Source: Aurelia coerulea
Taxonomy: Eukaryota > Cnidaria > Scyphozoa > Semaeostomeae > Ulmaridae
Direction of reading: 5' to 3'
Length of the DNA: 64,000 nt
Assembly (NCBI GenBank): GCA_039566865.1
Contig: CM076957.1
Span: 8,751,896 to 8,815,895 of the forward strand
Position numbers and translations under genes: made by a program. The notes under the pieces were generated by a model that was not told the DNA's origin, ran no database searches, and saw only the letters and a list, made by a program, of their open reading frames with translations. This document shows, piece after piece, positions 2,253 through 49,421 of the stretch. Position 1 is the stretch's first letter, and each line of letters begins with the position of its first letter.

Positions 2253-2499
2253 TTACCTTATGAAAATCGGTCAAACCCTGTCAAATGCTGACACTGGTCA
2301 AAAAACCTACTGGTCACTAATAAACAAAGTCTTAAATAAAGCTAAGATTCCAGCAATACCACCCCTTTTGGAAAATGACATTTTTGTACTAGATTTTACA
2401 ACAAAGGCTCAAATCTTTAACGACTAATTCATTCTTCAGTGTACCACTATAGATACAGGCAGCCAAATTCCTAACTTTGCTGCAAGTAATGTCCCTACA

Positions 2500-8580: not shown

Positions 8581-8673
8581 GCCCCAAAAATTTTCCTGGG
8601 AACTTCACCCCCAGACCCCCTCCTTTCAATACCACCCCACTTAATTTACCCTGGCCACGCTGCTGGCTTATTG

Positions 8674-20612: not shown

Positions 20613-21373
20613 CAGTGGCGTGGCCACGGGGTGCCCCCCCCCACTTTTGTCGAAAGGTGGTCCTCGATATTCCTCTAAAACCGAAGAGAAAATAGCTGGG
20701 TATAGGTTGGGAAAGAATTTTCTGAGAAATGTCAAATCTTGGCACTGGCAAGCATCATATTGGGAGATGCATTTTAAGCCAAAGTAAAGGACCTTTCTTT
20801 TAAAATTTTCCTCGTGCTCTGATTCATATGATAACTGTCACAAAACGATGAAGGTTTCCTTGTCGCTAAAGGCAAGCATGATATTAGGAGATGCATGCTA
20901 AGGCAAAGTAAGGGATCTGTCTTCAAAAATTTTCCTCGTGCCCTGATTTATAGCATGATTGTCACAAACGATAAAGGTTTCCTTGTTGCTAAAGGCAAGC
21001 ATGACATTGGGAGATGCATTCTAAGCCAAAGTAAGGGATATGTCATCAAAAGTTTTCCTCGTGCGATGATTTATAGCATAATTGTCACATAACGATCAAG
21101 GTTTCCATGTCGCTAAAGGCAAGCATGATTTTAGGAGATGCATTCTAAGCCAAAGTAAAGGACCTTTCTTCAAAAATTTTCCTCGTGCTCTGATTCATAG
21201 GATAACTGTCACAAAACGATGTAGGTTTCCTTGTCGCTAAAGGCAAGCATGCTATTGGGAAATGCATTCTAAGCCAAAGTAAAGGGCGTAGCCACAAAAA
21301 TTTTCCTAGGGGATTCGCCCTCAGACCCCCTCATTGTACTGCCCACCCCCACTTAATTTACCCTGGCCACGCA
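20613..21373. mobile_element. Non-autonomous hAT, family A copy 2, nested in family D
   Basis: It begins CAGTGGCGTGGCCACGG and ends CCCTGGCCACGC, where the last bases of the TIR seem lost. No duplication can be read, so the right end may be deleted. It aligns with family A copy 1 without the family B insertion and thus provides the empty site (ATAGGTTGGGAAAGAA). Confidence 0.8.
20747..21300 (+). repeat. 124-bp tandem repeat, about 4.5 units, inside family A hAT
   Basis: GGCAAGCAT starts lie at 20747, 20871, 20994, 21118 and 21242 (steps of 123-124). The sequence is the same as in the array at 8160. Confidence 0.93.
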
Positions 21374-22564: not shown

Positions 22565-23325
22565 TAACGTTAAAATTTAACGTTTGGCTACACAAGCCTT
22601 GACACTTTTTAACGTTTCGCCACACAGGCCTTGACACTTTTGGCTACACAAGCCTTGACACTTTTTCACGTTTGGCTACACAAGCCTTGACACTTTTTAA
22701 CGTTTGGCCACACAGGCCTTGACACTTTGAAACGTTTCGCCACACAGGCCTTGACACTTTGAAACGTTTCGCCACACAGGCCTTGACACTTTTGGCTACA
22801 CCAGCCTTAACGCTTTGAAACGTTGGGCTACACAAGCCTTGAAACGTTTGGCCACAAAGGCCTCGACACTTTTGGCTACACAAGCCTTGACACTTTTTAA
22901 CGTTTGGCTACACAAGCCTTGACACTTTTTAACGTTTGGCCACACAGTCCTTGACACTTTTGGCTACACAAGCCTGCTTGACACTTTGAAAGGTTTGGCT
23001 AACAAGCCTTGACACTTTGAAACGTTTGGCCTAAAAAGCCTTAACACTTTGAAACGTTTGGCCTAAAAAGCCTTAACACTTTGAAACGTTTGGCCTAAAA
23101 AGCCTTAACACTTTGAAACTTTTGGCGTAACAAGCCTTGACACTTTGAAAACGTTTGGCCTAAAAAGCCTTAACACTTTGAAACGTTTGGCGTAACAAGC
23201 CTTGACACTTTGAAACGTTTGGCCTAAAAAGCCTTAACACTTTGAAACGTTTGGCCTAAAAAGCCTTAACACTGTGAACGTTTGACCTAAAAAGCCTTAA
23301 CACTTTGAAACGCTCGGCCTAAAGC
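22565..23325. repeat. 32-bp minisatellite, about 24 units
   Basis: Units of the type ACGTTTGGCTACACAAGCCT + TGACACTTT recur at about 32 bp, some shortened to 22. From about 23025 a second subtype, GGCCTAAAAAGCCTTAACAC, takes over. One strand stays open over 22644-22883, a property of the repeat length and not evidence of a gene. Confidence 0.95.
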
Positions 23326-24349: not shown

Positions 24350-25405
24350 TGATCCAGTTTCGATTTGTACAAATCCTCGATTTTTCTGCTCCATTGGAAG
24401 GAATCCTTAACACGTGTTTCTTTGCGCCGAAACAAAAGGGCCATCAGGCAGCCCTCGATTCCAAAAGACACAAATTCCTTGACTAGACGATTCAATAATG
24501 CTTACAACTGGTTTCGAAGGAGAGGCCACTGAACTATTTGAGAACTTTTGGAAGACATTGGAGACAAAAAGATTCACATCAATATCGGACCAAGTTAACA
24601 AGGGATTTTCTGCCACCCTCTTGCGAAAACGATCATAAACCAACCATCCTTCGCCATAAGATTCTCTCTGGATTTTAGATATCTGCAAAAAAATAACCCG
24701 TAAGCTGCCCAACTTTTCTCGGATTAAATTGGAGATACAATGAAGCAATCACGATCCATGCCCCGGCCCAGTCCTGAAAATTGCGAATTGGCTGCAACTC
24801 TGAATTTTTTTCGCATTTCAAAAGGCGCATAAATTGAGCCCCCACAGGTTCAACTTGGGGGCTTTGTCCAAATTAGCTGCGCGCAAAAGAACCAAATCGA
24901 CAAAAATATTCTTCTTTACCATGTTTACAATGTAACCAGGTACAGGCGGCAGACTTTCGGCAACAGAAAAACCAGGCTGTGAAATTTGGCTGGTGACAAT
25001 AAGTTGAGGATTCAACGCAAAAAGTTCTTTAGGAATATTCCAATTAGCTAGGCTTGGGACACAGGAGGACTGAGCTGAGGCTGAGCTCGTGGTCGGCTGA
25101 CCCTGGAGGCTTGAAGACTGAAAGACATTAGATTGATTAAGGCCAACTGAAGCCACGGACAAAATTGAAGGGGCAAAGTTTTGGCTAAAAGCAGATTGAC
25201 CTGAGCTCGCAGAAATAACGGATGCCTGTGAGCTTGTACCAGCGAACGATGTTGCATCTTGGTTTGATACATTAACATCAGCCCCCCCCCCCTCCCCCGT
25301 AGTCAGAAGACGCCCGACTGACTGCTGAATATTCGATATAGCTGATTCAAGAGCCCCCAATCTTGCACCCATTAAATCTCCACCTGTCAAATTCGAGTTA
25401 ATCAA
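24350..25405 (-). pseudogene. Gag-like remnant of another DIRS/Ngaro-group retroelement
   Basis: On the minus strand, 25405-24818 encodes a Ser/Gln/Ala-rich region and LPPVPGYIVNMVKKNIFVDL. Codons around 24780-24700 read WAGAWIVIASLYLQFNP and YFFADI. The frame 24748-24407 then has YGEGWLVYDRFRKRVAENP, LLTWSDIDVNLFV and GICVFWNRG. This order resembles the capsid-like and CxxxxNxG region of DIRS-group Gag proteins as I remember them. One frameshift near 24690 and another near the end break it. It lies just outside the 3' end of the Ngaro element, so it belongs to a different insertion or to a domesticated relative. Confidence 0.55.
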
Positions 25406-25547
25406 AGTATCTTCATCAGATATAATAAATATAACACGAGAGAAAATAATTCAAATCGGAACGCTCTCACCAAAGCAGTTCAATGACGCGTCACCGGACA
25501 CAGCGACCTTGAATCGCAGAACCACCTGCTGTCTCTGGCTGATGAAG

Positions 25548-25611
25548 ATAGTAACCTATCCTCATCCAATTAGCCACTCCCCCTCTCAAATCAACTAAGA
25601 TACCCGAGTGC
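25548..25611 (-). repeat. Ngaro split repeat B2
   Basis: 64 bases beginning (plus strand) ATAGTAACCTATCCTCATCC, identical by eye to 26025-26088. It forms the 3' end of the element. Confidence 0.93.
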
Positions 25612-25651
25612 GAAGGAAGATCGCTATTTGAGAGGAATAGTGACTAATGGA
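25566..25651. repeat. Hairpin formed by B2 and an inverted partner
   Basis: CCAATTAGCCACTCCCCCTC (in B2) faces TTTGAGAGGAATAGTGACTA at 25628-25647: an imperfect inverted copy 35 bases away. Confidence 0.65.
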
Positions 25652-25669
25652 CCCCTAATGGACAATTTT

Positions 25670-25794
25670 CACTTCGCTTTTCTAGGCTTAAAGGCATCTT
25701 AGTGCCAGCGCCAATAATGCCTATTTGCCTTTAAGCCTTGCAAAATAGTAAAAACGTAGAAAAAACTTGGTACATAACTCTAAAAAGCGAAGTG
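25670..25794. repeat. Two-stem inverted repeat between A2 and B2
   Basis: CACTTCGCTTTT (25670-25681) pairs with AAAAGCGAAGTG (25783-25794). Nested inside, GGCTTAAAGGCA (25685-25696) pairs with TGCCTTTAAGCC (25726-25737). Both 12-bp stems are perfect. The structure lies in the 3' non-coding part of the Ngaro element. Confidence 0.9.
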
Positions 25795-25846
25795 GAAATG
25801 GCCTATGCTAAAGAAAAGAACCGTCGCCGAGGGAGGAGGGTGGGTC

Positions 25847-26028
25847 GCTTTGACACTTGTCACTGCTTGTTGCGTAGAAAAGAGGCGGAATAAGCCAATT
25901 CCAGGGTTTTATATACTTGCTAGGCCTCAAGGGGCCACACACTAGGCTAGCTAGATCCCGTGGGGGTCACGAAAGGAGTTTCCATGCGTTACTTTGAGAT
26001 TTTAGAGTGACTTCTTGGGTGAGAATAG
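25847..26028 (-). repeat. Ngaro split repeat A2
   Basis: 182 bases, identical by eye to A1 (36101-36282). It overlaps B1 by the four bases ATAG at 26025-26028. ATAG is also the outermost word at both element ends, as expected if the internal junction templates a circular intermediate. Confidence 0.95.
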
Positions 26029-26088
26029 TAACCTATCCTCATCCAATTAGCCACTCCCCCTCTCAAATCAACTAAGATACCCGAGTGC
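26025..26088 (-). repeat. Ngaro split repeat B1
   Basis: 64 bases identical by eye to B2. It adjoins A2 with a four-base overlap. Confidence 0.93.
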
Positions 26089-26249
26089 TCCGGAAGTCAC
26101 AATTTCGGCAATGTGTATACATGCAAAGAAAACAAGGAAAGATGAAACTTTAGTAGCAAAATATGTGTCATAAAAACCCAACGATATTTACTCCATAACT
26201 CAGAAAAAAAAAAAAAAAAAAAAAACCAAAAAAACCCTACAAAACAGCT

Positions 26250-27602
26250 TCAAGAAAACAGAGGTTTGAAGCCTTTTAAGCAGTTTTTATCACGGAAAAT
26301 CGCTCCAAGACTGCTGGCTGCACAAGCATTGGATTCAGTACTTGGGGTAGAGGCTTTGGATAAAGCCGTGCTTGCACCATCAGGGGCCATGACTTTTTCA
26401 CATTGTGAATACTGGACAGCCATGTCTACACTCTTCCAGCCTACGTGATCAGAGATCTGAGAGTAGGGTATCCCAAGCAGCGAAAGCGTAATAGAGCATC
26501 CACTTCGAAAACCGTGCATTGTCTCTCCTTCTGATATTGACAAGTCTTGTAAATGTTTCCGAAGTCTGTTTCCGACTGCTGTGCCAACAAACGGCTTGGT
26601 TGTAACATTACCTTGACGGTTAGTTGAACGAAACAAGAAGCCTGTCTTAAGATCGACACCTAATTTGCAGGCAAGGGCCAAATAAATACGTAGGTTTGCG
26701 ACTGGGCACACAGGCGAATTTTTAACTTTCTGGATAGCGAATACGTTGCTGTTATTTCCCCGCAGAGTCTTACCAAAAACCTGATTGAACACGAAGGAGT
26801 TGCCGTCATATTTTGCCAACACATCCACCGACTTGACCCTTCCGAGATCTGAAGCCCTATCTCCGGAAAAGAAATCGATGGAGAAAAAAGCCATATCCCT
26901 TGAAAGGATATACAGCTCGATCGGAGTAACACCAGAAGCTCTCATAAGGCTTCTGAGATGAGTGCAAAGAAGGCTTAATTTGTCCAAAAAGAAAGGAACT
27001 GCTTTTTTCGGAAATCTTCTGCAAATTGTTTGCTCTTCTAAAACCATGTCATAATAGTCCTTCACCGAATGATGAGCAGCTGGATTTCCGATATGTAAAT
27101 CCTCATTCCATGTAGAGCCCCTTCCGATTTCTTTAAAGATAGATCTTAGCTTACCAATATTGTTATCGATAGTACCTGCTGCTAGGCCACGATAACAGGA
27201 ACAAGGTGCATTTTTCGCGATAGAACGAGTAGGACATTCATCTGAATGGGAGGTTGACTTGCCGAATTTATCCCTCCAGATCAGGAAATTGACTATCTCT
27301 TGCGGTGAAGCTATAGCTATGGATTTACGCTCTGTTTGAGACCACAGGAAAGATTCTAGCTGCTGTTGAAGACTGCTCTTTTGCCGCTGATATGGTTTTT
27401 TCGACTTGTTATGCGAGAGTGTATGTAATCTATCCACGATGCGTTGTTCATCTACCTCGACGACAGCAGGAGGAGTGTGAGCCCGAGGAGACCCTTGCCG
27501 ACAGCCGCATTTACTGCAGAAATGAAAGTCAAAGTCATTTGGTGAGCCACATCGTCCGCAGCTAACTGCTGGTTTCCATATTCTAGCAATTGTAGGTGTG
27601 AC
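26250..27602 (-). CDS. Tyrosine recombinase (integrase) of the Ngaro element
   Basis: The protein should join the retroelement's DNA copy into the genome by site-specific recombination, without an aspartate-type integrase. Counting from the frame start at 27608, Cys17-Cys20 and Cys31-Cys34 form a zinc-ribbon-like N-terminus (CGRCG ... FCSKCGC). The catalytic set is readable: Arg251 (FSGDRASDLGRV), His365-x-x-Arg368 (MHGFRSG), His388 (SDHVGWKS) and the nucleophile Tyr400 (VQYSQ). The frame has no early ATG. It is preceded by TTTTTCTAACTATTGCAG, a strong acceptor with branch-like CTAAC, so translation probably starts on an upstream exon spliced to GTC at 27602 in phase 0. The stop of RT-RNase H lies within that acceptor region. 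No inactivating change is seen. Confidence 0.92.
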   Translation of the reverse strand, partial: VTPTIARIWKPAVSCGRCGSPNDFDFHFCSKCGCRQGSPRAHTPPAVVEVDEQRIVDRLHTLSHNKSKKPYQRQKSSLQQQLESFLWSQTERKSIAIASPQEIVNFLIWRDKFGKSTSHSDECPTRSIAKNAPCSCYRGLAAGTIDNNIGKLRSIFKEIGRGSTWNEDLHIGNPAAHHSVKDYYDMVLEEQTICRRFPKKAVPFFLDKLSLLCTHLRSLMRASGVTPIELYILSRDMAFFSIDFFSGDRASDLGRVKSVDVLAKYDGNSFVFNQVFGKTLRGNNSNVFAIQKVKNSPVCPVANLRIYLALACKLGVDLKTGFLFRSTNRQGNVTTKPFVGTAVGNRLRKHLQDLSISEGETMHGFRSGCSITLSLLGIPYSQISDHVGWKSVDMAVQYSQCEKVMAPDGASTALSKASTPSTESNACAASSLGAIFRDKNCLKGFKPLFS

Positions 27603-27611
27603 CTGCAATAG

Positions 27612-29792
27612 TTAGAAAAACAGTCTGAATGCAATTAAGTCCCACTGCAAAGGCTTTGTATGCCAACCAATTGATTTATTAGGGGGAAATAAAAGGACAT
27701 CGGACTGATTCTTCTTGCCAAGAACAACACTATCAACAGCTAAGGAGGATACCACTGGCCACCAATATTTTCTGGGAGAGATGTCAGGTACAACAAGCGT
27801 GACTCGTACCTGACTTGCTCTAAGGAATTTTAGCAAGGGACCAATTAAGACAAACGGTGGAAAAACATAGCAGTTGTCATCACTCCGAATTTCTTGCGCG
27901 AAAATATTGACACCACTTGATTGAGGACATGGATATGGGGAAAAGAACTTTAAAGGAGCGCCATTTGTACCGCATTTGACGTTTGACGGAATTGCCATCA
28001 GGTCAATGTCATGAGGGCCATATGTTTTCTCGAGTACGTTCCAAGCCCTGCTGGAAAGGGTACAGTCAAGATCCGACACAACGCGGGAAGGGGCATCTGC
28101 TGCGATCTCGCTAGATGGCATATAATACAGGTTCAGGGATGAATTTAACTTTAAGCAGAGATTGAAGAGATCCTTGATGACTCTTGTGAGGGAGATGTTT
28201 TTGCCACCTTGATTATTCCAAAAATGGAGCAGATTCTTATTGTCGACGTATGCATCCACATAGCAATTTTCTACTTTATTTGAGAATGATAAGAGAGTTC
28301 TGTAAAGAGCTAAAGCTTCCCTTATAGCAATAGGGAGAGCTTTTTCTTCATCGTCCCAGTAATCACGAACTGCTATAGGATCATTGGTGAAAGAGAATAC
28401 ACCGCCCCATCCAGAATTTGAAGCATCTGAGCACAAAGATACTGAAATATGTTTCTCCTCTCTCCAGCAAAGGGAGCCCTGCCACGAGTCAAGAAAACGC
28501 CAATGTTCAATTTCTCCTCTCAGATCATTAGTAAGGAATGTTGGAATAGAGGTCTTGATACCTTTACTTATGCCTGCATTGACCTCGCGAATATATAGAC
28601 GAGCAGCGGGGACAGCCAAAGAGAAAGACGCAGCTTTCCCCGCAAAACGCTGTAACGTCTTGACAGTTGCGACTTTTGATTGTAGTATTGTTTCCCTGAG
28701 TTTGGCGAATTTTTCCTTCTTCTCCTTTGGGACTTGGAAAGACTCAGTGGTTGAGTCGACAATGAGACCCAAAAATGTAATACTTTGAACAGGCATAAAC
28801 ACCGACTTCTTGAGGCCAATAAAGTAACCGCATTTAACAAGAACAAGGGCGGTGATAAAGGCTGCTGCTTTAGCCATCTCGAGGTCTGTCCATGCCTGTA
28901 CCGTTCTACTTGGGAGACATAATTGGCCAACATGTCGATCGTCGATATACTGAGACAACGGGACTCCTTTTGATCTTATGAAACTGGAGGCTCCTAATCC
29001 GACAGAATGGTAGACGTAGGCACTTGGGCTCCACCCAAAGGGTAGAGTATTATATACGAAGAACCATCCTTGCCAAAATAAGCCAAAGAATTTTCTGCTA
29101 GCGGCAGTAAGCATGATATGATCATAACCTGATTTATCATCCATTTTGGATTGGTAGTGATTCTTCTGGACATACCGTGGAAGGTCTGTGATGGGGTCAA
29201 AATGAATGTGTGGGGCTTTCATCCAAAGGTTCAGATAGCGCTCGTCGTGACACATACGGGGTTTCGTCGGCTCGATAGTTATAGGCATGACTAAATGAGG
29301 TGGTTGACAGTGACCTTCCTTGCCCCAAACACAGAGTGATCCATTTCTAACCCTTTCTAGAATTGACTCTGAGATGAATTCCTGGAACTGGTCGCAACTC
29401 TTGCTGTTAGAAAAAATCATGGGAGGTGGTCTGTCAGAATCAAAGCTTTTACCCTTGAAATCGCCTTTAAACGGTTGCATAAAGTCAAAGATAGAGACAC
29501 CATAGCGTATATACTTGAGGAGCTCCTCTCTTTTATGATGCTCCAACAAAATTTCACTCCACACATCGTAGTGTTGATGGATTTCACCTGCTAAAAAGCT
29601 GATTGGGTTTCGGAAGACGATGTTTTCTGGGGAACACTTAAGATTGCCCTTTTGAACATCTTCTATGATAGATAGAGGCATTATGTTGGCAGAGTCACAC
29701 CATTTTCCTGCAAAATTGCACCATGTGACATCAGACGAAGATCTCATGTTTCTCCTTGCATCTGCTAATTTCTCTTCGAAGGCTGACTGCAG
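27612..29792 (-). CDS. Reverse transcriptase-RNase H of the Ngaro element
   Basis: It copies the element RNA into DNA and removes the RNA strand. Numbered from the ATG at 29747 (711 residues): PTKPRMCHDERYLN 160-173, motif A KMDDKSGYDH 201-210, motif B TLPFGWSPSAY 234-244, catalytic QYIDD 266-270. RNase H follows with CSDASNSGWGG (Asp441), IREALAL (Glu477), YVDNKN (Asp502) and AADAPSR (Asp551). The end (GVNIFAQEI...FPPFVLIGPLLKFL) is a tail shared by DIRS-group enzymes. The frame is open upstream of the ATG to CTG at 29792, just after CTCCATTCTCACCTTAG, a likely splice acceptor in phase 0. All catalytic residues are present. Confidence 0.94.
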   Translation of the reverse strand: MQSAFEEKLADARRNMRSSSDVTWCNFAGKWCDSANIMPLSIIEDVQKGNLKCSPENIVFRNPISFLAGEIHQHYDVWSEILLEHHKREELLKYIRYGVSIFDFMQPFKGDFKGKSFDSDRPPPMIFSNSKSCDQFQEFISESILERVRNGSLCVWGKEGHCQPPHLVMPITIEPTKPRMCHDERYLNLWMKAPHIHFDPITDLPRYVQKNHYQSKMDDKSGYDHIMLTAASRKFFGLFWQGWFFVYNTLPFGWSPSAYVYHSVGLGASSFIRSKGVPLSQYIDDRHVGQLCLPSRTVQAWTDLEMAKAAAFITALVLVKCGYFIGLKKSVFMPVQSITFLGLIVDSTTESFQVPKEKKEKFAKLRETILQSKVATVKTLQRFAGKAASFSLAVPAARLYIREVNAGISKGIKTSIPTFLTNDLRGEIEHWRFLDSWQGSLCWREEKHISVSLCSDASNSGWGGVFSFTNDPIAVRDYWDDEEKALPIAIREALALYRTLLSFSNKVENCYVDAYVDNKNLLHFWNNQGGKNISLTRVIKDLFNLCLKLNSSLNLYYMPSSEIAADAPSRVVSDLDCTLSSRAWNVLEKTYGPHDIDLMAIPSNVKCGTNGAPLKFFSPYPCPQSSGVNIFAQEIRSDDNCYVFPPFVLIGPLLKFLRASQVRVTLVVPDISPRKYWWPVVSSLAVDSVVLGKKNQSDVLLFPPNKSIGWHTKPLQWDLIAFRLFF

Positions 29793-31557
29793 CTAAGGTG
29801 AGAATGGAGCGTAAAAGTCTTTTAATTTTAATAAATTAACTTTTTATTCTAATTTGACTGACAGGGTACCATGGTGAAATAATTAAAAAAGAAATCTGAT
29901 AAAAATGTTCTCAAAATGCTGACAATTTTGGTAAAAGGAAACTTGTGCAGTCAAAGCCTTCGGGCAAGGGTCCAGTAAAGTTTTAGAATAATAAGAGGCC
30001 GAAAAATAGTTATAGTTTCTTGATAAATCGGTCGTATTCAGCCTGAATATGCTGTTTTAAATATGAGGCACGGAGGTACCAATAGCCCCCTATTTCCCAT
30101 GTTTTAAAGAAATTGTTGGGCCACGAAAAAACTACCGGGTGTCCCAGGGAAGACATTACCCTGTTTGAACGTTCCCAGAAAAACGACCATTGCTTCGTTT
30201 TGGGTGCTTTTAACTGTAATCTTTTGTTTTAATGCAAATCTGAAGATTGCTGCCGATTTGTATTTTATTATTATTGTATTTCTTATTTTCCATTTTATTT
30301 TATTTATTTATTGTTTTTCTTTGCCGATTGAAAGACCACTAAACATGGATTTTCTGATCTTCTGTGGAAATGTTCAGCTCGAGAAACCTTTGAAAAGACA
30401 AAGAATCTGGCGATAAGATTTTCCATTTCTTTCACATCATGCTCGTAGTGCGTAAGAGCATACAAACGCAGGTCAACTTCATAGTTTGGCATTAAGACCT
30501 GGCAATGCAGACCATGGGACCTTTCCTAGGAAGTATATTTTTCTTAAAACAAAACGCAAAATCGTACTTTTACGGACAAAACATTATCTCTCTTCATTCC
30601 TACACTCTTTTTTTTTTTTTTTTTTTTTTTTGTAAGAAAATTTGAAATTTTGTCCAGCCTCGATATTCTTAAGAAAGTTTCGTTTTGAGCCTGAACATAT
30701 TCTTAAAGCATTTATGTCAGTCATGCGATTCTCTGTTATGAACATCACAAAACAGGCAACTGCTGAAAATTGAGATACAAATATGCCAGCTGAGGCTGGT
30801 AATATTCTTATAATATTCTTAAAAAATTGGATGATTCTGAGCCTGAATATTCTTATAAACATTATTGTTATAAAAAGAAAAGAGTGTATTATGAAGGACA
30901 AGCGCTGTACTATCTGAACTTGACAGAAAGGCTTGATTTTTGTGGATTTAGCTGCAGGTTGGACGATCTCATCGCCTAATACCCCATTCACACTTTGAAT
31001 CCAACCAGCTTAAACCGAACCAGACAGTTAAATTTTATAAAAATTAAAATACATTTGATAGCTGATTATCCCCTGGTTTAGATAAGCCGGTCCAACTGAG
31101 GCAGTGTGAAAGGGGTACAGCTGTTTTGGCCTTTTCATGACCTTTGCAGGTAATTGTTTTTTAGGAAAATATTAGTAGAGAATCCAAATACGCGCATCGG
31201 TACTGAAATGAAAGTTTTTTGTTATAATTTGGAGAATTTTTGTTTTTGTTTTAAAAATTAGAGAAAATGTTTCACTGCAAATCTGAAAAGACATATGTCG
31301 CAAATTCGAATGGTTAATACAACACAGCGACAGAGGACGGATGATGCAGTACAAAACAAAACAGAACTAAAGTGCAAGGAACGATAGAATAAAACTAAAA
31401 ACTTGTCTGCCGCATTAACCAATCACCAACGCCGCATATGTCCTCTGAACAAAAACTCGAAGAAAAAGAAACAATGACAACAATATAATTTGTGCAGCAG
31501 CGTTAAACGCAATAAATCGACAAAATAATGCATGATAAACACAATCAGTTACAGAAA
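29793..31557. other. Ngaro internal non-coding gap, possibly intronic
   Basis: There is no domain-bearing frame between the RT acceptor and the gag stop. Repeated words GAGCCTGAA(C/T)AT and ATATTCTTA(A/T)A occur at 30690-30860, and AAATTGTTGGGCC near 30108 echoes the module at 11.5 kb. A 24-base T-run lies at 30608-30631. Confidence 0.55.
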
Positions 31558-32169
31558 TTATTGTTGGTTGTCCCTGTTCTGCTGCCTTCCATATGGAGAT
31601 TGACGACGCCTGCAATTATACCACGTGTGGTTGTATCGGTTGCAAAAAGTGCAGTATCTGTTTCTATTTGGCATCCTCGGTTGAATAGAAGGGGGCCCTG
31701 GAAATGCTGGGAATGCTGGAGTCGGGAGCTGGTAACCAAAGTCATTGCCTGCAGGTGGTTGGAGTGAAGGTCTAGGTCTGTTGAAGATGTGCGGGGGAAA
31801 GTTGCTTGTTACGGTTGTTGTTGTTTTCGAATGCTTCTTGTCAACCTTTCCGATGGCTTCAATTATTTTCTCATAGTCCCTATCTCCAAGAAGAGCCAAA
31901 AGATAATTGTTAAATTGTTCTACAGGTTTCTTGAAACGCTCCTGAAGAGCAGCAAAAACGCCGGCGTAGTAGGTGGCCTTTTTGTCTTTGGCATCCCTTG
32001 ATGCATTCTTCAGATTTTCCACCTTTTCTAAGGCTACATATTTATCGAAGTCGACAACTGGTCTTAGAGAGTATTGAATAATCTCTTGCTGCAAGGAGGA
32101 AACTGCTGGCTTTTCTCTTTCTTCAAGGGCCTTAAGCCTGTCCATCAAAACGGTTAGATCTTGTGCAGG
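31558..32169 (-). CDS. Gag-like protein of the Ngaro element, exon 2 (zinc knuckle)
   Basis: The 3' exon of the nucleocapsid-like ORF1. It follows TTTTCTCTTATTGTAG and opens with codons for PAQDLTVLMDRLKALEERE in phase 0. A helical, charged region comes first (EKVENLKNASRDAKDKKATYY and on), then a Pro-rich part. A CCHC zinc knuckle closes it: CTFCNRYNHTWYNC, spaced C-x2-C-x4-H-x4-C, among Arg/Gln residues suited to RNA binding. It ends at a stop at 31558. Joined to exon 1 the product would be about 261 residues. I know the zinc-knuckle type but not a close named family. Confidence 0.82.
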   Translation of the reverse strand, partial: PAQDLTVLMDRLKALEEREKPAVSSLQQEIIQYSLRPVVDFDKYVALEKVENLKNASRDAKDKKATYYAGVFAALQERFKKPVEQFNNYLLALLGDRDYEKIIEAIGKVDKKHSKTTTTVTSNFPPHIFNRPRPSLQPPAGNDFGYQLPTPAFPAFPGPPSIQPRMPNRNRYCTFCNRYNHTWYNCRRRQSPYGRQQNRDNQQ

Positions 32170-35085
32170 CTACAATAAGAGAAAAGCTAAGATAAGAATG
32201 TTGTCATCCGAAGGCATTCCTTTTTCCTCTTCTTTTTCTCGTAAAATGATTATTTATTTATTTATTATGATGTACTATGACGTATTATAATAATCATAGA
32301 AGCTTACTGGAGCTCAACAGTGTCGTGATTTATATCTATTGTGGCGATTGGGACGAAAATGTACGCTAAATGGAGCCAAAATAAAGAATGTTAACAGGTA
32401 ATAGATAAAATCACAAGAACATCCGATCGTTATTCTGCTTAGTGGACGTAGAACATTTGCAAGAAGGGAAACATTTTTTGAAATTCCGCTTCTCGCTACC
32501 AATGCTGATGTTCCTTGAGACCGGGCTGAGCGCCCCCCGACTGCCCAACAAGAATGAGATATGACAAAATATAAAAACATATTTTATATTTTATTATATA
32601 CATAATATATTACTTAGAACGTAGTTCCATGAATATGTTTTGTCATTAACTTAGCAATAATGGGGGAAGGGGGTCACGCAGTCCAGCCACAAGGAACCCA
32701 GCCACAGACCGAGTGTAAGGTTCTTAGTAAAACCCCCAAGTGGCTAGGAGCGATAGCTAAACTGAGAAAAATATAGTAATTGAAATAAAAAATAAAGCTA
32801 TACGGGAATTAAACTTATAGTACCTCCTAAGAGATGGAACTATAGCCAAATGTTTTCGTTTGACACTGGTCACAATAAACATACAAATAAGATTCTTTTT
32901 CGAACAAGATATAAGCAAGACGGATCTGTAAAATCCATAAATACCATCCTTTTAGGCTACCGCCACGATGATTTACGCTTAACGATGCTCTTTCAAATTC
33001 ATAAGTCAAATTCTGTTTGGCTACCGTAACGAAGATTTACGCTAAACGGTGCTCTTTCAAAAACATAAATCAAGTTCTCTTTGGCTACCGTAACGAAGAT
33101 TTACGCTAGACGGTGCTCTTTCAAATTCATAAATCAAATTGTCTTTGGCTACCGTAACGAAGATTTACGCTAGACGGTGCTCTTTCAAATTCATGAATGA
33201 AATTCTGTTTGGCTACCGTAACGAAGATTTACGCTAGACGGTGCTCTTTCAAATTCATGAATCAAATTCTGTTTAGCTACCGTAACGAAGATTTACGCTA
33301 GACGGTGCTTTTTCAAATCCATAAATCAAATTCTCTTTGGCTACCGTAACGAAGATTTACGCTAGACGGTGCTCATTCAAATTCATAAATCAAATTCTCT
33401 TTGGCTACCGTAACGAAGATTTACGCTAGACGGTGCTCTTTCAAATTCATAAATCAAATTCTCTTTGGCTACCGTAACGAAGATTTACGCTAGACGGTGC
33501 TCTTTCAAATTCATAAATCAAATTCTCTTTGGCTACCGTAACGAAGATTTACGCTAGACGGTGCTCTTTCAAATTCATAAATCAAATTCTCTTTGGCTAC
33601 CGTAACGAAGATTTACGCTAAACGGTGCTCTTTCAAATCCATAAATCAAATTCTCTTTGGCTACCGTAACGAAGATTTACGCTAGACGGTGCTCATTCAA
33701 ATTCATAAATCAAATTCTCTTTGGCTACCGTAACGAAGATTTACGCTAGACGGTGCTCTTTCAAATTCATAAATCAAATTCTCTTTGGCTACCGTAACGA
33801 AGATTTACGCTAGACGGTGCTCTTTCAAATTCATAAATCAAATTCTCTTTGGCTACCGTAACGAAGATTTACGCTAAACGGTGCTCTTTCAAATCCATAA
33901 ATCAAATTCTCTTTGGCTACCGTAACGAAGATTTACGCTAGACGGTGCTCATTCAAATTCATAAATCAAATTCTCTTTGGCTACCGTAACGAAGATTTAC
34001 GCTAGACGGTGCTCTTTCAAATTCATAAATCAAATTCTCTTTGGCTACCGTAACGAAGATTTACGCTAGACGGTGCTCTTTCAAATTCATAAATCAAATC
34101 CTCTTTGGCTACCGTAACGAAGATTTACGCTAAACGGTGCTCTTTCAAATTCATAAATCAAATTCTCTTTGGCTACCGTAACGAAGATTTACGCTAAACG
34201 GTGCTCTTTCAAATCCATAAATCAAATTCTCTTTGGCTACCGTAACGAAGATATACGCTAGACGGTGCTCTTTCAAATTCATAAATCAAATTCTCTTTGG
34301 CTACCGTAACGAAGATTTACGCTAGACGGTGCTCTTTCAAATTCATAAATCAAATTCTCTTTGGCTACCGTAACGAAGATTTACGCTAAACGGTGCTCTT
34401 TCAAATCCATAAATCAAATTCTCTTTGGCTACCGTAACGAAGATTTACGCTAGACGGTGCTCTTTCAAATTCATGAATGAAATTCTGTTTGGCTACCGTA
34501 ACGAAGATTTACGCTAGACGGTGCTCTTTCAAAAGACATAAATCAAATTCTCTTTGGCTACCGTAACGAAGATTTACGCTAAACGGTGCTCTTTCAAATT
34601 CATAAATCAAATTGTCTTTGGCTACCGTAACGAAGATTTACGCTAGACGGTGCTCTTTCAAATTATAAAACAAATTCTGTTTGGCTACCGTAACGAAGAA
34701 TTACGCTAAACGGTGCTCTCAAATTTAAAAATCAAAATTCTCTTTGGCTACTGTAAATGAGGATTACTCTAGACGGAGCTCTCCCTAAAAGATGCTATAC
34801 AAATATGAAAAACATGCAAGAAATGAATCGGTGATAAGGTAGAACTTGCACGCTGAAAAAATTGCACGTGGATTTGGGGAAAAAATGTTCTTCGGCCGCT
34901 TCTTCCCAAAATAAATAGAGCAACATGCACAAAAAGAAGCAACTGGGAAGCCTGAGGAAACAAACGGAAAACACTGTAAGATTGAGAGGGGAATATTCCA
35001 CAACTCTAGTTAAACGACGAGACACAAAAAATTTAATTACGAACAGGCCTATGTGAAACGATGGAGAATAAAACAGGTGACTTAC
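32170..35085 (-). other. Intron of the Ngaro gag-like gene, 2916 bases
   Basis: The donor is GCT|GTAAGTCACC at 35085 and the acceptor TCTTATTGTAG|CCT at 32170, both in phase 0. It contains a 64-bp minisatellite (32955-34785) and non-repetitive AT-rich sequence on both sides. Splicing is inferred from sites and frame only. Confidence 0.75.
32955..34785. repeat. 64-bp minisatellite, about 28 units, inside the intron
   Basis: The unit is CTCTTTGGCTACCGTAACGA + AGATTTACGCTAGACGGTGC + TCTTTCAAATTCATAAATCA + AATT. Starts step by 64 (for example 33333, 33397). Variants (CTCATTCAAATT; GCTAAACGG with AATCCATAAAT) recur every four or five units, so blocks were copied together. Outer units are more divergent than the middle. 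Confidence 0.97.
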
Positions 35086-35259
35086 AGCGTTTGCCACTGG
35101 TTCGGCCTGCTGATTTTCTGCCTGTTGCTGTGGCCTTTGCTGAGGGACTTCAGCTGCCCGAACGTCAGCAGCCTGATCGATTTGCTGCGGCTCGACACCA
35201 TTTTCTGGCATCCCAAGTAATCTATCTATGTCCATGGCAGGTACCTGCTCCAATGCCAT
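35086..35259 (-). CDS. Ngaro gag-like exon 1, possible shared leader exon
   Basis: 58 codons from ATG at 35259 (MALEQVPAMDIDRLL ... AENQQAEPVANA), rich in Gln, Ala and Pro, end exactly at a codon boundary before GTAAGT. Exon 2 of the gag-like gene, RT-RNase H and the recombinase each begin after an acceptor in the same phase, so this exon could supply the start codon for all three. The ATG follows the tail of a LINE insertion by about 15 bases. No known domain. Confidence 0.75.
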
Positions 35260-35273
35260 GCCGTAAGGCGACG

Positions 35274-36065
35274 GTTTCAGTTTCAGTTTCAGTTTCAGTT
35301 TTATATGTTAAATTCCACTACATACAATTTATAACCTAACTATACACACGAATAACTAAACTACAAAGATAATTGTTACAGAAAATAAACACAATGATAC
35401 AGAAAATTAATACAATATACAAATACAAAGAGGGGCTAAATAAATAAATTGTATGCAGGGAATTACTTAGAGGAGGAGCTCTCTCAATAGGTAAACTAAT
35501 CGAGGAGAGAGCCCCCCCTATCCTAAGATACTATCAGGTGAAAATAGAAGTTGTGCATTTCCTATTTAAAAATTGATAGCAATTGTTCAGGTTTCAAATA
35601 GATTCATCGGTTGACCTTGTTTAGCAAGTAAATTTTTAGTTTTGTTTTGAATGATATTTTTGATGGAGCATTTCTGAGTTCTACAGGTAATGTGTTCCAA
35701 AGTTTAGCACCAAGATATCGAATTGACTTGAGACCATATTGAAGACTGTTTTTTCGAGACAAAAATAAATTACCCTGACTGGCCTGTCTAGTGGAGTGCT
35801 GATGAACAGATGAACTGAATAAGAAAAAGTCATGAAAGCAACTTGGTGAAGTTTTATTAACAGAATCAAAAACAAAAGTTAAGAGTCGGAGTTCAAAGAG
35901 CTCAGAAATTTTTAGGAGTTTGAGGTCAATGAAGATTGGAAGAGATGGAGACATGCGAGGCTGAAATGAGATAGCTCTGACTGCTTTTTTCTGTAATTTG
36001 AAAATTGGATCAATGTATGATGCATATGTTTGACCCCAAACAATAAGACCATATTGCAAGAAGGA
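35274..36065 (-). mobile_element. 5'-truncated LINE inserted in the Ngaro 5' region, (CTGAAA)n tail
   Basis: A LINE C-terminal frame (36059-35604) is followed by a UTR of about 300 bases and a hexamer tail: CAGTTT units on the plus strand at 35277-35301. It lies between A1 and gag exon 1, in the presumed 5' UTR. The flanks show no clear duplication. Confidence 0.8.
35604..36059 (-). pseudogene. LINE ORF2 C-terminus, frame intact
   Basis: The 151-codon frame shows LQKKAVRAISFQP, LLKISELFELRLLTFVFD, RYLGAKLWNTLPVELRN and FKTKLKIYLL, the usual order for the end of a LINE ORF2. RT and endonuclease are absent through 5' truncation. Confidence 0.87.
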
Positions 36066-36100
36066 CAGAAGGTTCTTTTCTTTTCAAAACTAAGGGAAGA

Positions 36101-36282
36101 GCTTTGACACTTGTCACTGCTTGTTGCGTAGAAAAGAGGCGGAATAAGCCAATTCCAGGGTTTTATATACTTGCTAGGCCTCAAGGGGCCACACACTAGG
36201 CTAGCTAGATCCCGTGGGGGTCACGAAAGGAGTTTCCATGCGTTACTTTGAGATTTTAGAGTGACTTCTTGGGTGAGAATAG
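36101..36282 (-). repeat. Ngaro split repeat A1 (5' terminus)
   Basis: 182 bases identical by eye to A2. The outer end (ATAG on the plus strand) marks the 5' end of the element. It probably holds promoter or transcription start sequences; none is evident by motif. Confidence 0.95.
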
Positions 36283-38227: not shown

Positions 38228-39049
38228 TTAAAGAGTCTTAGAAAATTCCCGATGTATAAGTGCATACAAATCTTTGCAACTAATTATGATGCTAAAACTG
38301 TTACCAAAGCTATCTAACAAAGGCAAGGTAATTAATTAGAGTATCTCTAGCATATCTCGTGATTAAATTCGAATTGAATATCTTAACAACTGATACAGAT
38401 ACTGTTACTTATAAAATTACTCCTACCAGAGCATAATTACTATAGATTTGAGATTCTGTGTCTTTCATTGATTTTCAGATTGAATACTTTCTGTACCACT
38501 ATGACAAGTAACTCCATTACTAAAAATACTTGATTGTATATCTTCCATACATTTTCAAATAGAATATAATTGCTCTGTTGGAACTGTTACTGATGCCTCT
38601 GTATGTTAAAGAGTCTTAGAAAATTCCCGATGTATAAGTGCATACAAATCTTTGCAACTAATTATGATGCTAAAACTGTTACCAAAGCTATCTAACCCCA
38701 TCTAACAAAGGCAAGGTAATTAATTAGAGTATCTCTAGCGTATCTCGTGATTATATTCGCATTGAATATCTTAACAACTGATACAGATACTGTTACTTAT
38801 AAAATTACTGCTACCAGAGCATAATTACAATAGATTTGAGATTCTGTGTCTTTTTATTGATTTTCAGATTGAAAACTTTCTGTACTACTACTGACAAAGT
38901 AACACCATTACTACCAAAAAAAAATACTTGGCTGTGAAACTTTCATATATTTTCAAATAGAATATTTGCTCTGATGGAACTGTTACTGATGCCTCTGTAT
39001 ATTAAAGAATCTTAGAACATTCCTGGTGTATACTACTAGGTGTATCCTG

Positions 39050-41939
39050 GTGTATCAAAATGCTCCTTGACTATGTTCAAATACCAGGGTACGAACTCCT
39101 ATACAACAACCGTGATAACATCAGGGGTGGAGGAGTCGGTTTTTATATAAAGGACACAATAAGATTTAAACGCAGGAAAGACATCGAAAATAGAATGCCT
39201 GATTTGGAACACTTATGGGTAGAACTGCCGGGGAAAAATAAAAATAGCCGGCTACTGGCGGGTGTTGTTTATCGCTCAGAAAAGCTGCTTCCATTCAACG
39301 ACTGGCTTGACAAATTCGAGGATACGATTGGATATGTAAAAACTATCTGGGATGGTCCTATAATGATAACAGGGGACATGAACATCGACTTATTTTCCTC
39401 AGATACGAACTGCCGCAATTACCAAGGTTTATTAAAACAGTTCAATCTCACGCAAATCGTAAGGAATCCAACCAGAATCTCACAAAATTCAGCTACCTTA
39501 ATCGACCACATATTAATAAGCAATCCAGAACTTGTAAAATGCACCGACATTCTGCCCTGCCACGACGTCAGTGATCACGACGGTCCATACGCTCTTCTTA
39601 ACGTGCGACTGCCTAAGTATGAGCCAAGATATAAGCTGATTCGGAATGAGAAGTCTTTCGATAAAGACTCTTTTGTTGAAGATGTAAAATGCCTCCCTTT
39701 CAGCTTGGTCTATGCTGTCTCTCATCCTGACGAAAAATTGAGCATATTTAATGATCTTCTACTTGACGTAATCAACAAACATGCTCCAATCAGGAGAATA
39801 AAGGTTACAAGACCACCTGCACCCTGGATGAACGATCCTGCAATCAAAAAGTTGCAAAATTTGAGAGACGTAAGTCGCTCTGAAGCCCATCAGTCACAAA
39901 ATCCATCGACATGGGAAAAATTTAAAGAAACCAAACGCGCAGTAAAAAAGGCTATAAGGAGAGCCAAGTCTACCTTTTATCGTAAGGCTCTTTCCAAAGA
40001 CAACCCGAAAGAGGTCTGGAAAATAATCCATGGTATTTTGCATCCTCCAGCAAAACGTGCTACTTTCAACCCTGCTGAACTTAATAAATATTTCGCAACT
40101 ATCGCCAGTGTCACACTAAAGAAGAAAGCCATTCCAAGAAATGAAACTAGCCAGTTTATTAACGGCCTACCAGAAACCCGAAAAGATGATGATTCTGATT
40201 GCTTCCACCTCCATCGTACCAGCTACCAGAATGTCCTAAAGCAGTTGAAACTTTTACGCAATGACACATCGACTGGTCCTGATGAGATCCCAATTCGATT
40301 TGTAAAGATGGTAGACGAAATCCTTTGCTCTCCCCTAACGCATATCATTAATGCATTCATAGAAAGCAACACCTTTCCTACACTTTGGAAGGCTGCAAGG
40401 ATCGTCCCAATTAACAAAGTGGCAACACCAACTGACAAATCTCATTTTCGGCCTATTGCTATTCTACCCGCCCTTTCAAAGATTTTTGAAAGAACCGTTT
40501 GCAACCAGCTCCTCGAATTCATAGACAAACGACACTTGTATAAAGATACGGTTACTGGTTTCAGGAAGGGTTTCTCGACTGGTTCGGCCTTGCTAAAGCT
40601 GAGAGATGATATCAAGAAAGCAATGGGCGCGAGTGAACTATCGATTATAGTACTCATTGATTTCTCTAAAGCATTTGATACTATTTCACATGACACCCTA
40701 ATCAAAACTCTGCACAAATACGGCTTTTCAAGAGAATTTCTCCACTGGACGCTAAGCTACCTAAGTGGCCGCAGACAGTACGTGCAACTTGACTCTAAGA
40801 AATCCAAATTTATGACAACATATTTTGGTGTTCCACAGGGTTCCATTTTAGGCCCACTCCTATTTAATCTTTATGTGAACGATCTAAAAGAATACCTTCC
40901 ATCTAAGTCGATTCAATATGCTGATGACACTACGATCTATGAATCATGCAGACCTTCTAACATACAAAGCGCTGTAAGTAAACTGAGTGATACTCTCACA
41001 AAGTTAGAAACCTGGTCGAGCGATAACTCACTGGCTATCAACGCTATCAAGTCCAAGTATTTCATCTGTTCGTCCAAAAAACTACATGATCGACATCATC
41101 TGTCTAACATACCAGTCTCTTTATCAATGGGTGAAAAGCCCCTTGACCTAGAAAGCAACCCACGTCTACTTGGCATCTACTTAGATAAACACTTAGACTG
41201 GTCAAATCACTTGCAAGAAGTCATATCAAGCTGCTACGGAAAACTTGCAGTCTTGAAGAAACTCAAAAACTTCACAACGTTTAAACTAAGAAAGCAACTT
41301 GCCGAATGCTTGATATTATCAAAGATTGACTTTAACGATCATGTCTACTCGCCCTTGACAAATGCACAAGTTAACAAACTGCAACGATTACAGAAGGCAG
41401 CTGCCAGTTTTGTTTTCGGTAAATATGCCTCCACTAAAGATGTCCTAAAACTGAGATGGCTTCCTGTAGAAGAGAGACGGGAGTTTAATTGCATGAAACT
41501 CGCATACAAAGCTATTCATTATGAAAACTGGCCAACAATCAACCAAATAGAAATCAAAACTACGGGTCGCATGCTTCGCAATAGCAATGACCTAAAGCTC
41601 ATGTCTTCGTTGATAAAAGGAACATTTCAAGATCAAGCCAGCAAACAATTCAACAAACTTCCATCTGCTATTCGACACGAAACAACTATATACTCTTTCT
41701 GTAACAATCTACGGGAACAGCTTTTTATGCGAGCAAATGAACGACTAACTACTTAACTACTTTTTCGAGTTTCTTGATGACAATTCATCTTAACTTTACA
41801 TTACTTTCAATTTCAATCATTATTCCTTTAATATTATTGTAAACATAGGGAAAAAAACTTTTTAGCTAGAGTTGACGAGCCACACTTTAGTTGTGGATAT
41901 GCTCTTAAAAACCATGTATGTATGTATGTATGTATGTAT
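39050..41939 (+). mobile_element. APE-type LINE with nearly complete ORF2, (ATGT)n tail
   Basis: One uninterrupted frame is followed by a UTR of about 150 bases and an (ATGT)n tail at 41913-41939. The 5' junction falls in the tandem repeat at about 39050, within the endonuclease N-terminus, so the copy is 5' truncated. A second LINE begins right after the tail. Confidence 0.9.
39060..41756 (+). CDS. LINE ORF2: endonuclease-reverse transcriptase, 898 residues, 5' truncated
   Basis: The protein nicks target DNA and copies LINE RNA there. Residues 1-180 are the APE endonuclease minus its first catalytic block: GGGVGFYIKD near 22-31, GDMNIDLF near 104, SATLIDHILIS near 146, and the SDH box (DVSDHDGP) near 170. 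RT follows: VLIDFSKAFDTISHD near 530 (motif A), GVPQGSILGPLLF near 589 (motif B), IQYADDTTIY near 618 (catalytic YADD). The thumb and C-terminal blocks (RLLGIYLDKHLDW, KLQRLQKAAASFVFG, FNKLPSAIRHETTIYSF) run to the stop. RT residues look intact. The missing N-terminus of the endonuclease argues against autonomy. The first ATG is incidental. CR1/jockey-group fits; clade not certain. Confidence 0.93.
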   Translation: MLLDYVQIPGYELLYNNRDNIRGGGVGFYIKDTIRFKRRKDIENRMPDLEHLWVELPGKNKNSRLLAGVVYRSEKLLPFNDWLDKFEDTIGYVKTIWDGPIMITGDMNIDLFSSDTNCRNYQGLLKQFNLTQIVRNPTRISQNSATLIDHILISNPELVKCTDILPCHDVSDHDGPYALLNVRLPKYEPRYKLIRNEKSFDKDSFVEDVKCLPFSLVYAVSHPDEKLSIFNDLLLDVINKHAPIRRIKVTRPPAPWMNDPAIKKLQNLRDVSRSEAHQSQNPSTWEKFKETKRAVKKAIRRAKSTFYRKALSKDNPKEVWKIIHGILHPPAKRATFNPAELNKYFATIASVTLKKKAIPRNETSQFINGLPETRKDDDSDCFHLHRTSYQNVLKQLKLLRNDTSTGPDEIPIRFVKMVDEILCSPLTHIINAFIESNTFPTLWKAARIVPINKVATPTDKSHFRPIAILPALSKIFERTVCNQLLEFIDKRHLYKDTVTGFRKGFSTGSALLKLRDDIKKAMGASELSIIVLIDFSKAFDTISHDTLIKTLHKYGFSREFLHWTLSYLSGRRQYVQLDSKKSKFMTTYFGVPQGSILGPLLFNLYVNDLKEYLPSKSIQYADDTTIYESCRPSNIQSAVSKLSDTLTKLETWSSDNSLAINAIKSKYFICSSKKLHDRHHLSNIPVSLSMGEKPLDLESNPRLLGIYLDKHLDWSNHLQEVISSCYGKLAVLKKLKNFTTFKLRKQLAECLILSKIDFNDHVYSPLTNAQVNKLQRLQKAAASFVFGKYASTKDVLKLRWLPVEERREFNCMKLAYKAIHYENWPTINQIEIKTTGRMLRNSNDLKLMSSLIKGTFQDQASKQFNKLPSAIRHETTIYSFCNNLREQLFMRANERLTT

Positions 41940-42119
41940 CATCAGTTATATCTCAGGAATAAATCAAACTTTACGAGAGAATTTTTCAAGAAGGCTCGGA
42001 ACAGGGCTACCAATGCAATACGGGAGTCAAAGCAAGAATATTTTAGTTCTTCTATTGAAGAAAACTGGAACAACCCTAAGGAGATGTGGAAGACATTGAA
42101 AAAAATTGTTACCATCTAA
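41940..42119 (+). pseudogene. LINE linker before RT
   Basis: The frame reads YLRNKSNFTREFFKKARNRA and NWNNPKEMWKTLKKI, a basic linker seen before LINE RTs. It overlaps the next frame by a shift near 42110. Confidence 0.8.
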
Positions 42120-43338: not shown

Positions 43339-43889
43339 GGAGGGTGAAATCCTTCATTCCACGGGACAGTCTTGTTCGACTTGCAGACTCGCTTGTGAAT
43401 ACTCACATCGATTATTGTTCCCCTTTATTGCATAACTTTTCTGGAAACCAACTTGAATCTTTGCTAAAGCTACAAAAACAATGTGCTCGAACGATATTTT
43501 CTGTCAGCAGAAGGACTCATTGCAAACCCCTTTTTATTGATCTTGCCTTGCTTCCAATCTACCAACGGATTGAGTACAACTCTTGCCTAATGATGTTCAA
43601 AATTGAATCAAATATAGCCCCTCCTTATTTGACCAATTTGTTTCAACGTTCATCTGATCTGCACAGCCACAACACACGATCTTCCTCTAATAAATCATTC
43701 GCATGCCCTGGGGGGCAAGGCAAGCTTTATACAAAATCATTCGCTTTTTATGGAACCAAGTTGTGGAACTCTTTGCCAAGACATTTGAAGGACATAAAAT
43801 CATTGGAGCTTTTCAAAGCAAAGTGCAAGACTCATTTAATGGACAAATTTATTTCTCAGTTTGATCTGAAATATGGTTTTACAGTTTAA
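43239..43889 (+). pseudogene. LINE ORF2 C-terminal part
   Basis: From about 43310 the frame continues the RT thumb: IMRRVKSFIPRDSLVRLADS, HIDYCSPLL, LESLLKLQKQCARTIF, HNTRSSSNKSFA, FAFYGTKLWNSLPRHLKD. It ends at a natural stop at 43887-43889. Confidence 0.9.
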
Positions 43890-49400: not shown

Positions 49401-49421
49401 TAAATGATCAATGTTTGTTTA
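46420..49421 (+). repeat. AT-rich satellite, about 248-bp unit, first block of about 12 units
   Basis: Unit starts marked by ATCGATGTTTGTTTATGCAG fall at 46431, 46677, 46926, 47175 and 47424 (steps of 246-249). Units alternate between a GAGACTAAAGAAAAAAC type and a GAAACGAAAGAAATAAC type. Each keeps two short palindromes, GCACTAATATAGTGC and GAGTGCAATACTC. No coding. Confidence 0.97.

Follow-up and report, generated by a model that had tools for sequence, protein, structure and literature searches.

A young ALOG-class tyrosine-recombinase retrotransposon of Aurelia coerulea with split direct repeats and genes predicted to be spliced from one leader exon

The window analysed here, a 64,000-nucleotide stretch of the Aurelia coerulea genome (C15:8751896-8815895), contains on its minus strand, from position 36282 to 25548, an element that is likely to be a young tyrosine-recombinase (YR) retrotransposon of the ALOG class with split direct repeats, leader-spliced genes and integration as a circle. 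Judging from sequence comparison, its gag, reverse transcriptase (RT) and recombinase seem to be made by splicing one common leader exon to three genes. The evidence that carries this reading consists of repeats, ends common to several insertions, intact catalytic residues, conserved in-phase splice signals and one spliced genomic copy that begins with the left repeat, A1. New here are the in-phase 3' splice sites for three genes below one leader and that spliced copy, referred to as L065. In the excerpts of published work drawn on in this paper, the expression of three genes and the rebuilding of ends in YR retrotransposons rest largely on models, and this element family allows a direct test, with predicted junctions at exact coordinates and a spliced copy starting at A1.

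Features of the element, in sense order (L016 and L017 are its two closest copies; ORF, open reading frame; LINE, long interspersed nuclear element):

36101..36282, minus strand: A1, left split direct repeat; sense start CTATTCTCACC, TATATAAAA box at 36169-36161; left end common to six other copies
35273..36070, minus strand: LINE 3' end fragment, 798 bp, 5'-truncated, in the 5' leader; absent from L016 and L017
35086..35259, minus strand: predicted leader exon with ATG, 58 codons, Gln/Pro-rich; phase 0 end at GCT|gtaagt, donor 35085
32170..35085, minus strand: predicted leader intron, from donor and acceptor; equal splice signals in L016 and L017
32955..34782, minus strand: tandem array within the leader intron, 64-bp unit x 28.6, from repeat analysis
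31558..32169, minus strand: gag exon 2, 203 codons and stop, zinc knuckle CX2CX4HX4C; opens at tattgtag|CCT
29793..31557, minus strand: spacer of 1.77 kb, no recognised gene
27612..29792, minus strand: RT (YIDD)-RNase H-Dam-like ORF, 726 codons and stop; opens at ttag|CTGCAG|TCA
27615..28070, minus strand: Dam-methyltransferase-like domain, NPPF/Y changed to FPPF, predicted inactive, from a sequence profile
26250..27602, minus strand: recombinase exon with zinc ribbon, ALOG domain and tyrosine recombinase; in-frame opening at tgtttttctaactattgcag|GTC
26025..26088, minus strand: B1, from repeat alignment
25847..26028, minus strand: A2, internal copy, from repeat alignment; the B1/A2 joint restates the circle junction
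25612..25846, minus strand: A2-B2 spacer, 75% alike in the sister copy L019
25548..25611, minus strand: B2, right end ...GGTTACTAT, from repeat alignment; end common to other copies

Repeats, ends and related copies

A1 and A2 agree at 182/182 positions and B1 and B2 at 64/64 by alignment, which bears out the identity that the original prediction had judged by eye, and the order it had given for the minus strand, A1-ORFs-B1-A2-B2, is found from 36282 to 25548 with the geometry of a circle junction. B1 runs 4 bp into A2 (ATAG on the plus strand, CTAT on the sense strand), and CTAT recurs at both outer ends of the sense strand (CTATTCTC... and ...GTTACTAT), in agreement with the common ATAG named there for the outer ends and the overlap. 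The DIRS1-like combination of inverted terminal repeats with an internal complementary region was not seen, as 0/17 listed inverted pairs join the element ends, where direct repeats stand instead.

The whole genome (574,161,440 bases in 294 contigs) was searched with A1, and 40 of the 123 candidates were scored. Six of these, a pair from each of three elements, were at 100%, and the remaining 34 at 84-85%. Two elements apart from the window copy carry the identical A and B repeats, L016 (C7, 9,524 bp) and L017 (C1, 9,550 bp). They share both ends with the window copy and have different flanks, as do three copies of a sister subfamily (L018, L019 and L020); in a fourth sister copy, L021, the left end is equal and the right end lies outside the stretch examined. 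The boundaries are therefore confirmed by independent insertions, including against the possibility, raised with the original prediction, that other copies might end elsewhere. No target duplication was seen by eye in the six insertions printed with both flanks.

In pairwise comparison of the window copy, L016 and L017, 11-13 of the 4,146 coding bases are different (1-3 in gag exon 2, 6-7 in the RT and 3-4 in the recombinase), and with these few differences and its identical A and B repeats the window element is a young, recently inserted copy. In the window copy, as in L017, all three frames (gag exon 2, RT and recombinase) are open; in L016 a stop lies within the recombinase. The sister copies L018-L021 gave no match to gag exon 2, and their matches to the RT (in L019-L021) and to the recombinase are limited to residues 663-715 and 3-61, respectively. 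A decayed leader persists in L019-L021, and its donor in L019, the one printed. The divergence between the subfamilies is 16% in A1, 5% in B and 18-30% in other flanking sequence.

As had been claimed, the window copy has open frames for the RT, with 726 codons, and for the recombinase, with 453. The further description of the element as apparently complete is right for the frames but not for the 5' leader, which in the window copy only, and not in L016 or L017, is interrupted by the LINE fragment at 36070-35273, an ORF2 C-terminus followed by a (GAAACT)n tail. With the count begun some 30 bases downstream of the TATA box, this fragment adds nine ATGs before the gag ATG, where L016 and L017 have none, and gag translation from the window copy is probably impaired because of them. 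In a single comparison, the protein encoded by the fragment is similar to the window LINE ORF at 43212-43886 (E=1e-19). LINE ORFs of the window lie at 39006-41756, 42100-43889, 16777-17937 and 1479-3237, and one 916-codon frame contains endonuclease and RT domains.

A common leader exon and a spliced genomic copy

The gag gene comprises two predicted exons, and gag exon 2, the RT and the recombinase all open at 3' splice sites of equal phase below the one leader exon, with acceptors at ttattgtag|CCT (32169), ttag|CTGCAG|TCA (29792 or 29786) and tgtttttctaactattgcag|GTC (27602). In the recombinase frame the first ATG does not occur before residue 189. When splice sites were ranked with an approximate matrix typed from general knowledge, the recombinase acceptor came 3rd, the gag acceptor 20th and the RT acceptor 31st or 50th among the 693 AGs in the element, and the donor came 8th among its 580 GTs.

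Protein homologues show the residues that such acceptors would leave when unspliced sequence is translated. A PRxW anchor is present in 35/120 recombinase homologues, 15 of which have at least 11 residues ahead of it, and in 13/15 a Gln, expected from CAG, stands 4-6 residues ahead of the anchor. Sixteen RT homologues reach far enough and 11 of these run past the boundary; nine of the 11 have, by eye, a Phe/Leu/Ser-rich stretch ending in Gln, as expected from a translated pyrimidine tract and CAG. Within the Aurelia genome, 16 loci were examined from 96 recombinase matches, consisting of 15 unspliced starts (seven sequence types) and L049, which has no upstream RT. All 15 unspliced starts have a phase-0 AG at the equal residue, with pyrimidines at 9-12 of the 15 preceding positions, and six of the ten RT starts (four sequence types) open exactly at TAG| with 11-14/15 pyrimidines, where the background rate of AGs with at least 11/15 pyrimidines is 0.007 per base in the examined stretches. 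A leader like that of the window copy was found in the unspliced element L066 and in gene models P0094, P0107 and P0128. The amphioxus model P0107 joins a Gln/Pro-rich leader to an RT, the amphioxus model P0094 contains a similar leader, gag exon 2 with a zinc knuckle and an RT, and P0128, P0135 and P0138 join leaders of this kind to gag exon 2. A shared leader in YR retrotransposons was not described in the open-access literature searched.

The locus L065, which is L049 extended, carries A1, the 5' leader and the leader exon with 383/384 bases as in L066, and directly after the leader it continues into the recombinase exon, which agrees with that of unspliced L041 at 74/74 bases. The donor CAC|gtgagt comes after the leader in L066, and gccctag precedes the recombinase exon in L041, L048, L050 and L053 (gccctag|GTAACT in L041). 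The reading frame of L065 is continuous from the leader ATG into the recombinase. These sequence matches make L065 the genomic copy of a message in which leader and recombinase are spliced together, and the copy begins with A1. Its likeness to L066 starts with the second base of CTATTCTCACC, some 110 bases ahead of the TATA-like CATATAAAAA, and it therefore keeps sequence above the expected RNA start, which would fit an A1 rebuilt on a spliced RNA with its internal junction as the source, the outcome expected under the internal-junction model; a retrocopy made by a LINE would, in contrast, start at the RNA 5' end. A B1-A2-like joint is also kept, as judged by eye.

L065 is bordered on the left by a LINE-like endonuclease ORF and on the right by a stretch like the end of a LINE ORF. 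A genomic deletion, instead of reverse transcription of a spliced RNA, could be proposed for this locus, given its truncated right end and the LINE-like coding sequence on its left, but we regard this as very improbable, as the joint corresponds to the donor and acceptor of unspliced relatives (within a common GT of two bases) and the frame is kept.

Several observations weigh against the common-leader reading. The splice-site ranks are good and not unique, with higher-scoring AGs and GTs elsewhere in the element, and the CTAAC ahead of the recombinase acceptor lies very near the AG for a branch point. Two of the 15 recombinase homologues lack the Gln. Of the ten RT starts, four were not usable, among them L062, which opens at an AG without a preceding pyrimidine. 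Translation of the RT could begin at its ATG at codon 16 and need no splicing. The models P0094 and P0107 were predicted by others. L065, a lone locus from another subfamily, now has a broken recombinase and ends prematurely on the right, inside A2, and its junction can shift by the two bases of the common GT.

Protein domains and class of the element

The YIDD motif of the RT and the RNase H and recombinase residues listed in the original prediction are present, with D456, E492, D517 and D566 in the RNase H and R252, K281, H366xxR369, H389 and Y401 in the recombinase; the catalytic residues of the three enzymes are kept in 57-59/59 alignment rows, and the Cys/His of both zinc sites are conserved. 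The RT-RNase H scored slightly over the cut-off for Pfam RVT_1 and under the cut-off for RNase H, and its model (predicted local distance difference test, pLDDT, 88.5) has a fold like the RTs of cauliflower mosaic virus, foamy virus, murine leukaemia virus and Ty3, in a fold search spanning residues 26-564. The RT ORF had no match in a PDB sequence search. The recombinase matches Pfam ALOG PF04852 at E=9.8e-18, with Phage_integrase under the cut-off; its model (pLDDT 85.8) has Cre as the best fold match (3crx, E=3.5e-11), and the Arabidopsis ALOG structure 8p5q matches it in sequence (E=7.5e-6) and in fold (E=7.8e-6). Named homologues come from Desmophyllum and Porites for the recombinase and from Actinostola and Branchiostoma for the RT.

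The RT ORF can be aligned with phage Dam methyltransferases over its residues 575-726. The C-terminal domain had a Dam gene as its sole match among 50,697 phage records (E=2), and the BLASTP pair at E=3e-7 was picked after that match, which makes its E-value flattering. An hhalign comparison of 14 C-terminal domains with six phage Dam proteins scored 41.6 (probability 84%), where 30 column shuffles reached 20.7 at most and seven other slices, taken from the RT and recombinase, gave 9.3-15.6; when the Dam-like slice was instead cut from the larger alignment, the score was 32.8, and the tool's own run gave 32.1 (probability 40%). Because Pfam Dam matched only 1/14 C-terminal rows, at E=0.15 and below the cut-off, the assignment rests on the BLASTP pair and hhalign. 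Searches of PHROGs and NCBIfam with the domain gave no match, and three PDB matches of its profile (E 0.06-0.3) were set aside as chance-like. The domain is predicted to be inactive, since the NPP of phage Dam (NCP in 1/6) is replaced by FPP in 58/59 element rows and by YPP in one.

Both marks of the ALOG class of Iyer and Aravind are therefore present, the zinc ribbon and ALOG domain at the recombinase N-terminus and, by sequence profile only, the inactive N6-adenine methylase domain, and by its recombinase sequence the element is assigned to the ALOG class of YR retrotransposons. ALOG-domain DIRS1-type retroposons are known from Ectocarpus and marine animals (Iyer and Aravind 2012, PMC3537659), and a 2025 survey of Ectocarpus, in its excerpted text, gives 15 Ngaro and 5 PAT-like families without mention of ALOG (PMC12477816).

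The original prediction had called the element Ngaro-type, a label that is only partly supported. The plan of split direct repeats is indeed present, but published keys, as excerpted, describe Ngaro without a methyltransferase domain and PAT/DIRS with one (PMC4157794; PMC9210276), and the Dam-like domain points to the latter, in a comparison made with the published description of Ngaro. A true Ngaro would express one unspliced RNA through internal initiation, frameshift or stop read-through, and its split direct repeats downstream of the recombinase, the RT and recombinase in one frame with a single stop between them, and the RT ATG at codon 16 would suit such an element. We nevertheless find it improbable, in view of the Dam-like domain that the keys deny to Ngaro, the ALOG recombinase, the lack of a recombinase ATG before residue 189, an RT C-terminus (..WDL.AFR..) whose likeness reaches as far as the stop in most of 60 printed relatives, and the spliced genomic copy L065.

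By its structural marks the element is PAT-like. All marks given for the echinoderm form of Pat1-like elements (downstream split direct repeats, methyltransferase-like domain and gag zinc finger; PMC4157794) are found, and membership in that group is a serious possibility, although we lean away from it; the same paper, in its excerpt, stresses that the split-direct-repeat and methyltransferase marks are homoplasious and calls for phylogeny, and the ALOG class has been described separately, as DIRS1-type (Iyer and Aravind). The choice between PAT-like and ALOG-class bears on the name more than on the mechanism.

Three scans of viral contigs gave no relative of the element. A scan of prokaryote genomes gave one contig, L001 (JAAXHI010000461.1), with a degenerate relative, a YR retrotransposon of eukaryotic type, and a tandem repeat between gag-like ORFs; it is filed under a Poribacteria metagenome-assembled genome, is probably contamination and served only as a hint.

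The intron array, the proposed cycle and known systems

All seven elements seen with both A repeats (the window copy and L016-L021) contain the 64-bp array, with 23-36 units. Thirteen further stretches were chosen for holding the 64-bp unit, five with an A repeat before the array (L026, L031, L032, L033 and L035, of which L032 and L033 look like mutual duplicates) and eight without. The idea of the array as a constant companion of A1 is weakened, and only the seven elements with both A repeats count, because these five of the 12 loci with A1 and array were selected by the array. In most of the eight stretches the array is near the stretch edge; L036 and L038 show 4.0 and 1.5 kb before the array with no A, and their arrays sit in truncated copies or outside elements. 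The largest array, L034, has 156 units in 9,991 bases and adjoins 78 units in L038. On C9:20182434-20216408 (G000), two A repeats lie 33.8 kb apart, and matches to the 64-bp unit are spread across some 21 kb of the interval; this may be a single element whose array has grown strongly.

The majority 64-bp units of 20 stretches, picked by their likeness to the window unit, differ from it at 0-2/64 positions; this could reflect any one of concerted change, constraint or a recent spread out of a single source. In L066, of another subfamily, the leader intron holds 11.9 copies of an unrelated 88-bp unit. A hairpin function of the array unit was unsupported for one 64-nt unit (z -0.67 against shuffles) and weak for 100 nt (z -1.56); the L001 repeat unit folds more strongly than shuffles (z -3.27).

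We incline, by a little, to the view that the array is a passive minisatellite, expanding by replication slippage or unequal exchange and of no role for the element. Array length varies between copies (23-36 units in the seven elements, 156 in one 9,991-base stretch), arrays occur in eight stretches with no A repeat in view, including L036 and L038 with their visible 4.0 and 1.5 kb, and the single 64-nt unit folds no better than shuffles. Opposed to this are the presence of the array in all seven elements with both A repeats, four of which are non-autonomous and have lost gag exon 2 and nearly all of the RT and recombinase, the 0-2/64 unit differences in 20 stretches where A1 has diverged by 16% and other flanks by 18-30% (B, 5%), and the unrelated 88-bp array at the equal place in L066.

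Other arrays of the window include 249-bp satellites at 46422-49422 (12.1 copies) and 55574-64000 (31 copies, to the window end), and a near-identical 124-bp tandem unit at 8160-8597 and 20747-21307, 12 kb apart. The element itself sits between a TATA-bearing left flank and a gag-like ORF on the right. The left flank had been considered as resembling A1 and was rejected (score 17 against a shuffle mean of 16.7). The gag-like ORF (24818-25450, minus strand) lies just past B2 and is followed further on by a 32-bp x 24 tandem array at 22579-23312; the two are perhaps another retroelement with a gag exon and then an array, in whose 5' part the element inserted.

In the proposed cycle, the RNA would start below the TATA box of A1 and end in or near B2. 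Part of it would remain unspliced as the genome, and part would be spliced from the one leader donor, with predicted junctions from 35086 to 32169 (gag exon 2), 29786/29792 (RT-RNase H) and 27602 (recombinase), the gag and RT messages presumably being spliced in the host; one donor joined to three acceptors would therefore yield three proteins with a common 58-residue leader. The RT would copy the RNA, with the internal B1-A2 joint as the template that rebuilds the missing ends as a circle, and the Cre-like recombinase would integrate this circle, probably at a CTAT core, without a long target duplication. A wider, retrovirus-like programme is speculative and on balance unlikely: one leader would be spliced to gag, RT and recombinase, spliced RNAs would re-enter the cycle with A1 rebuilt, and an obligatory cis-acting intron array, whose sequence changes and which might, for example, hold back splicing or package the unspliced genome, would escape as a satellite. 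Through this family, a retrotransposon intron becomes connected with satellite arrays that measure about 10 kb or more.

Like the ALOG retroposons of PMC3537659, the element has a zinc-knuckle Gag, RT-RNase H, inactive adenine methylase and a zinc-ribbon and ALOG recombinase, and those too have terminal direct repeats and a length of little over 9 kb. The excerpted account gives 159-bp terminal direct repeats, whereas the split A1/B1A2B2 structure is resolved here, and its text does not include a leader exon, splicing or an intron array. It also judged all metazoan copies inactive, a 2012 statement on which the present family bears, with three open frames in two same-family copies. With the echinoderm form of PAT/Pat1-like elements (PMC4157794) the element shares the downstream split direct repeats, methyltransferase-like domain and gag zinc finger, and with Ngaro of zebrafish, Xenopus and Cafeteria the A1-[ORFs]-B1A2B2 plan and an RT-RNase H followed by the YR; Ngaro is, however, described in the excerpts without a methyltransferase and at about 6-7 kb in Cafeteria, whereas L016 and L017 measure 9.5 kb. 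A splice acceptor ahead of a DIRS1-like gag has been inferred from LAP2alpha exons by the authors of PMC4495291, similar to the gag acceptor predicted here; that case, as excerpted, concerns one exon in host genes, with no common leader and no spliced RT or recombinase messages. Finally, in the long terminal repeat retrotransposon BARE (PMC3735527, excerpt), one RNA replicates and is also processed for translation, in distinct RNA pools, a division similar to the one proposed here, although BARE has another integrase and other terminal repeats, and the prediction here is of three ORFs served by a single leader exon.

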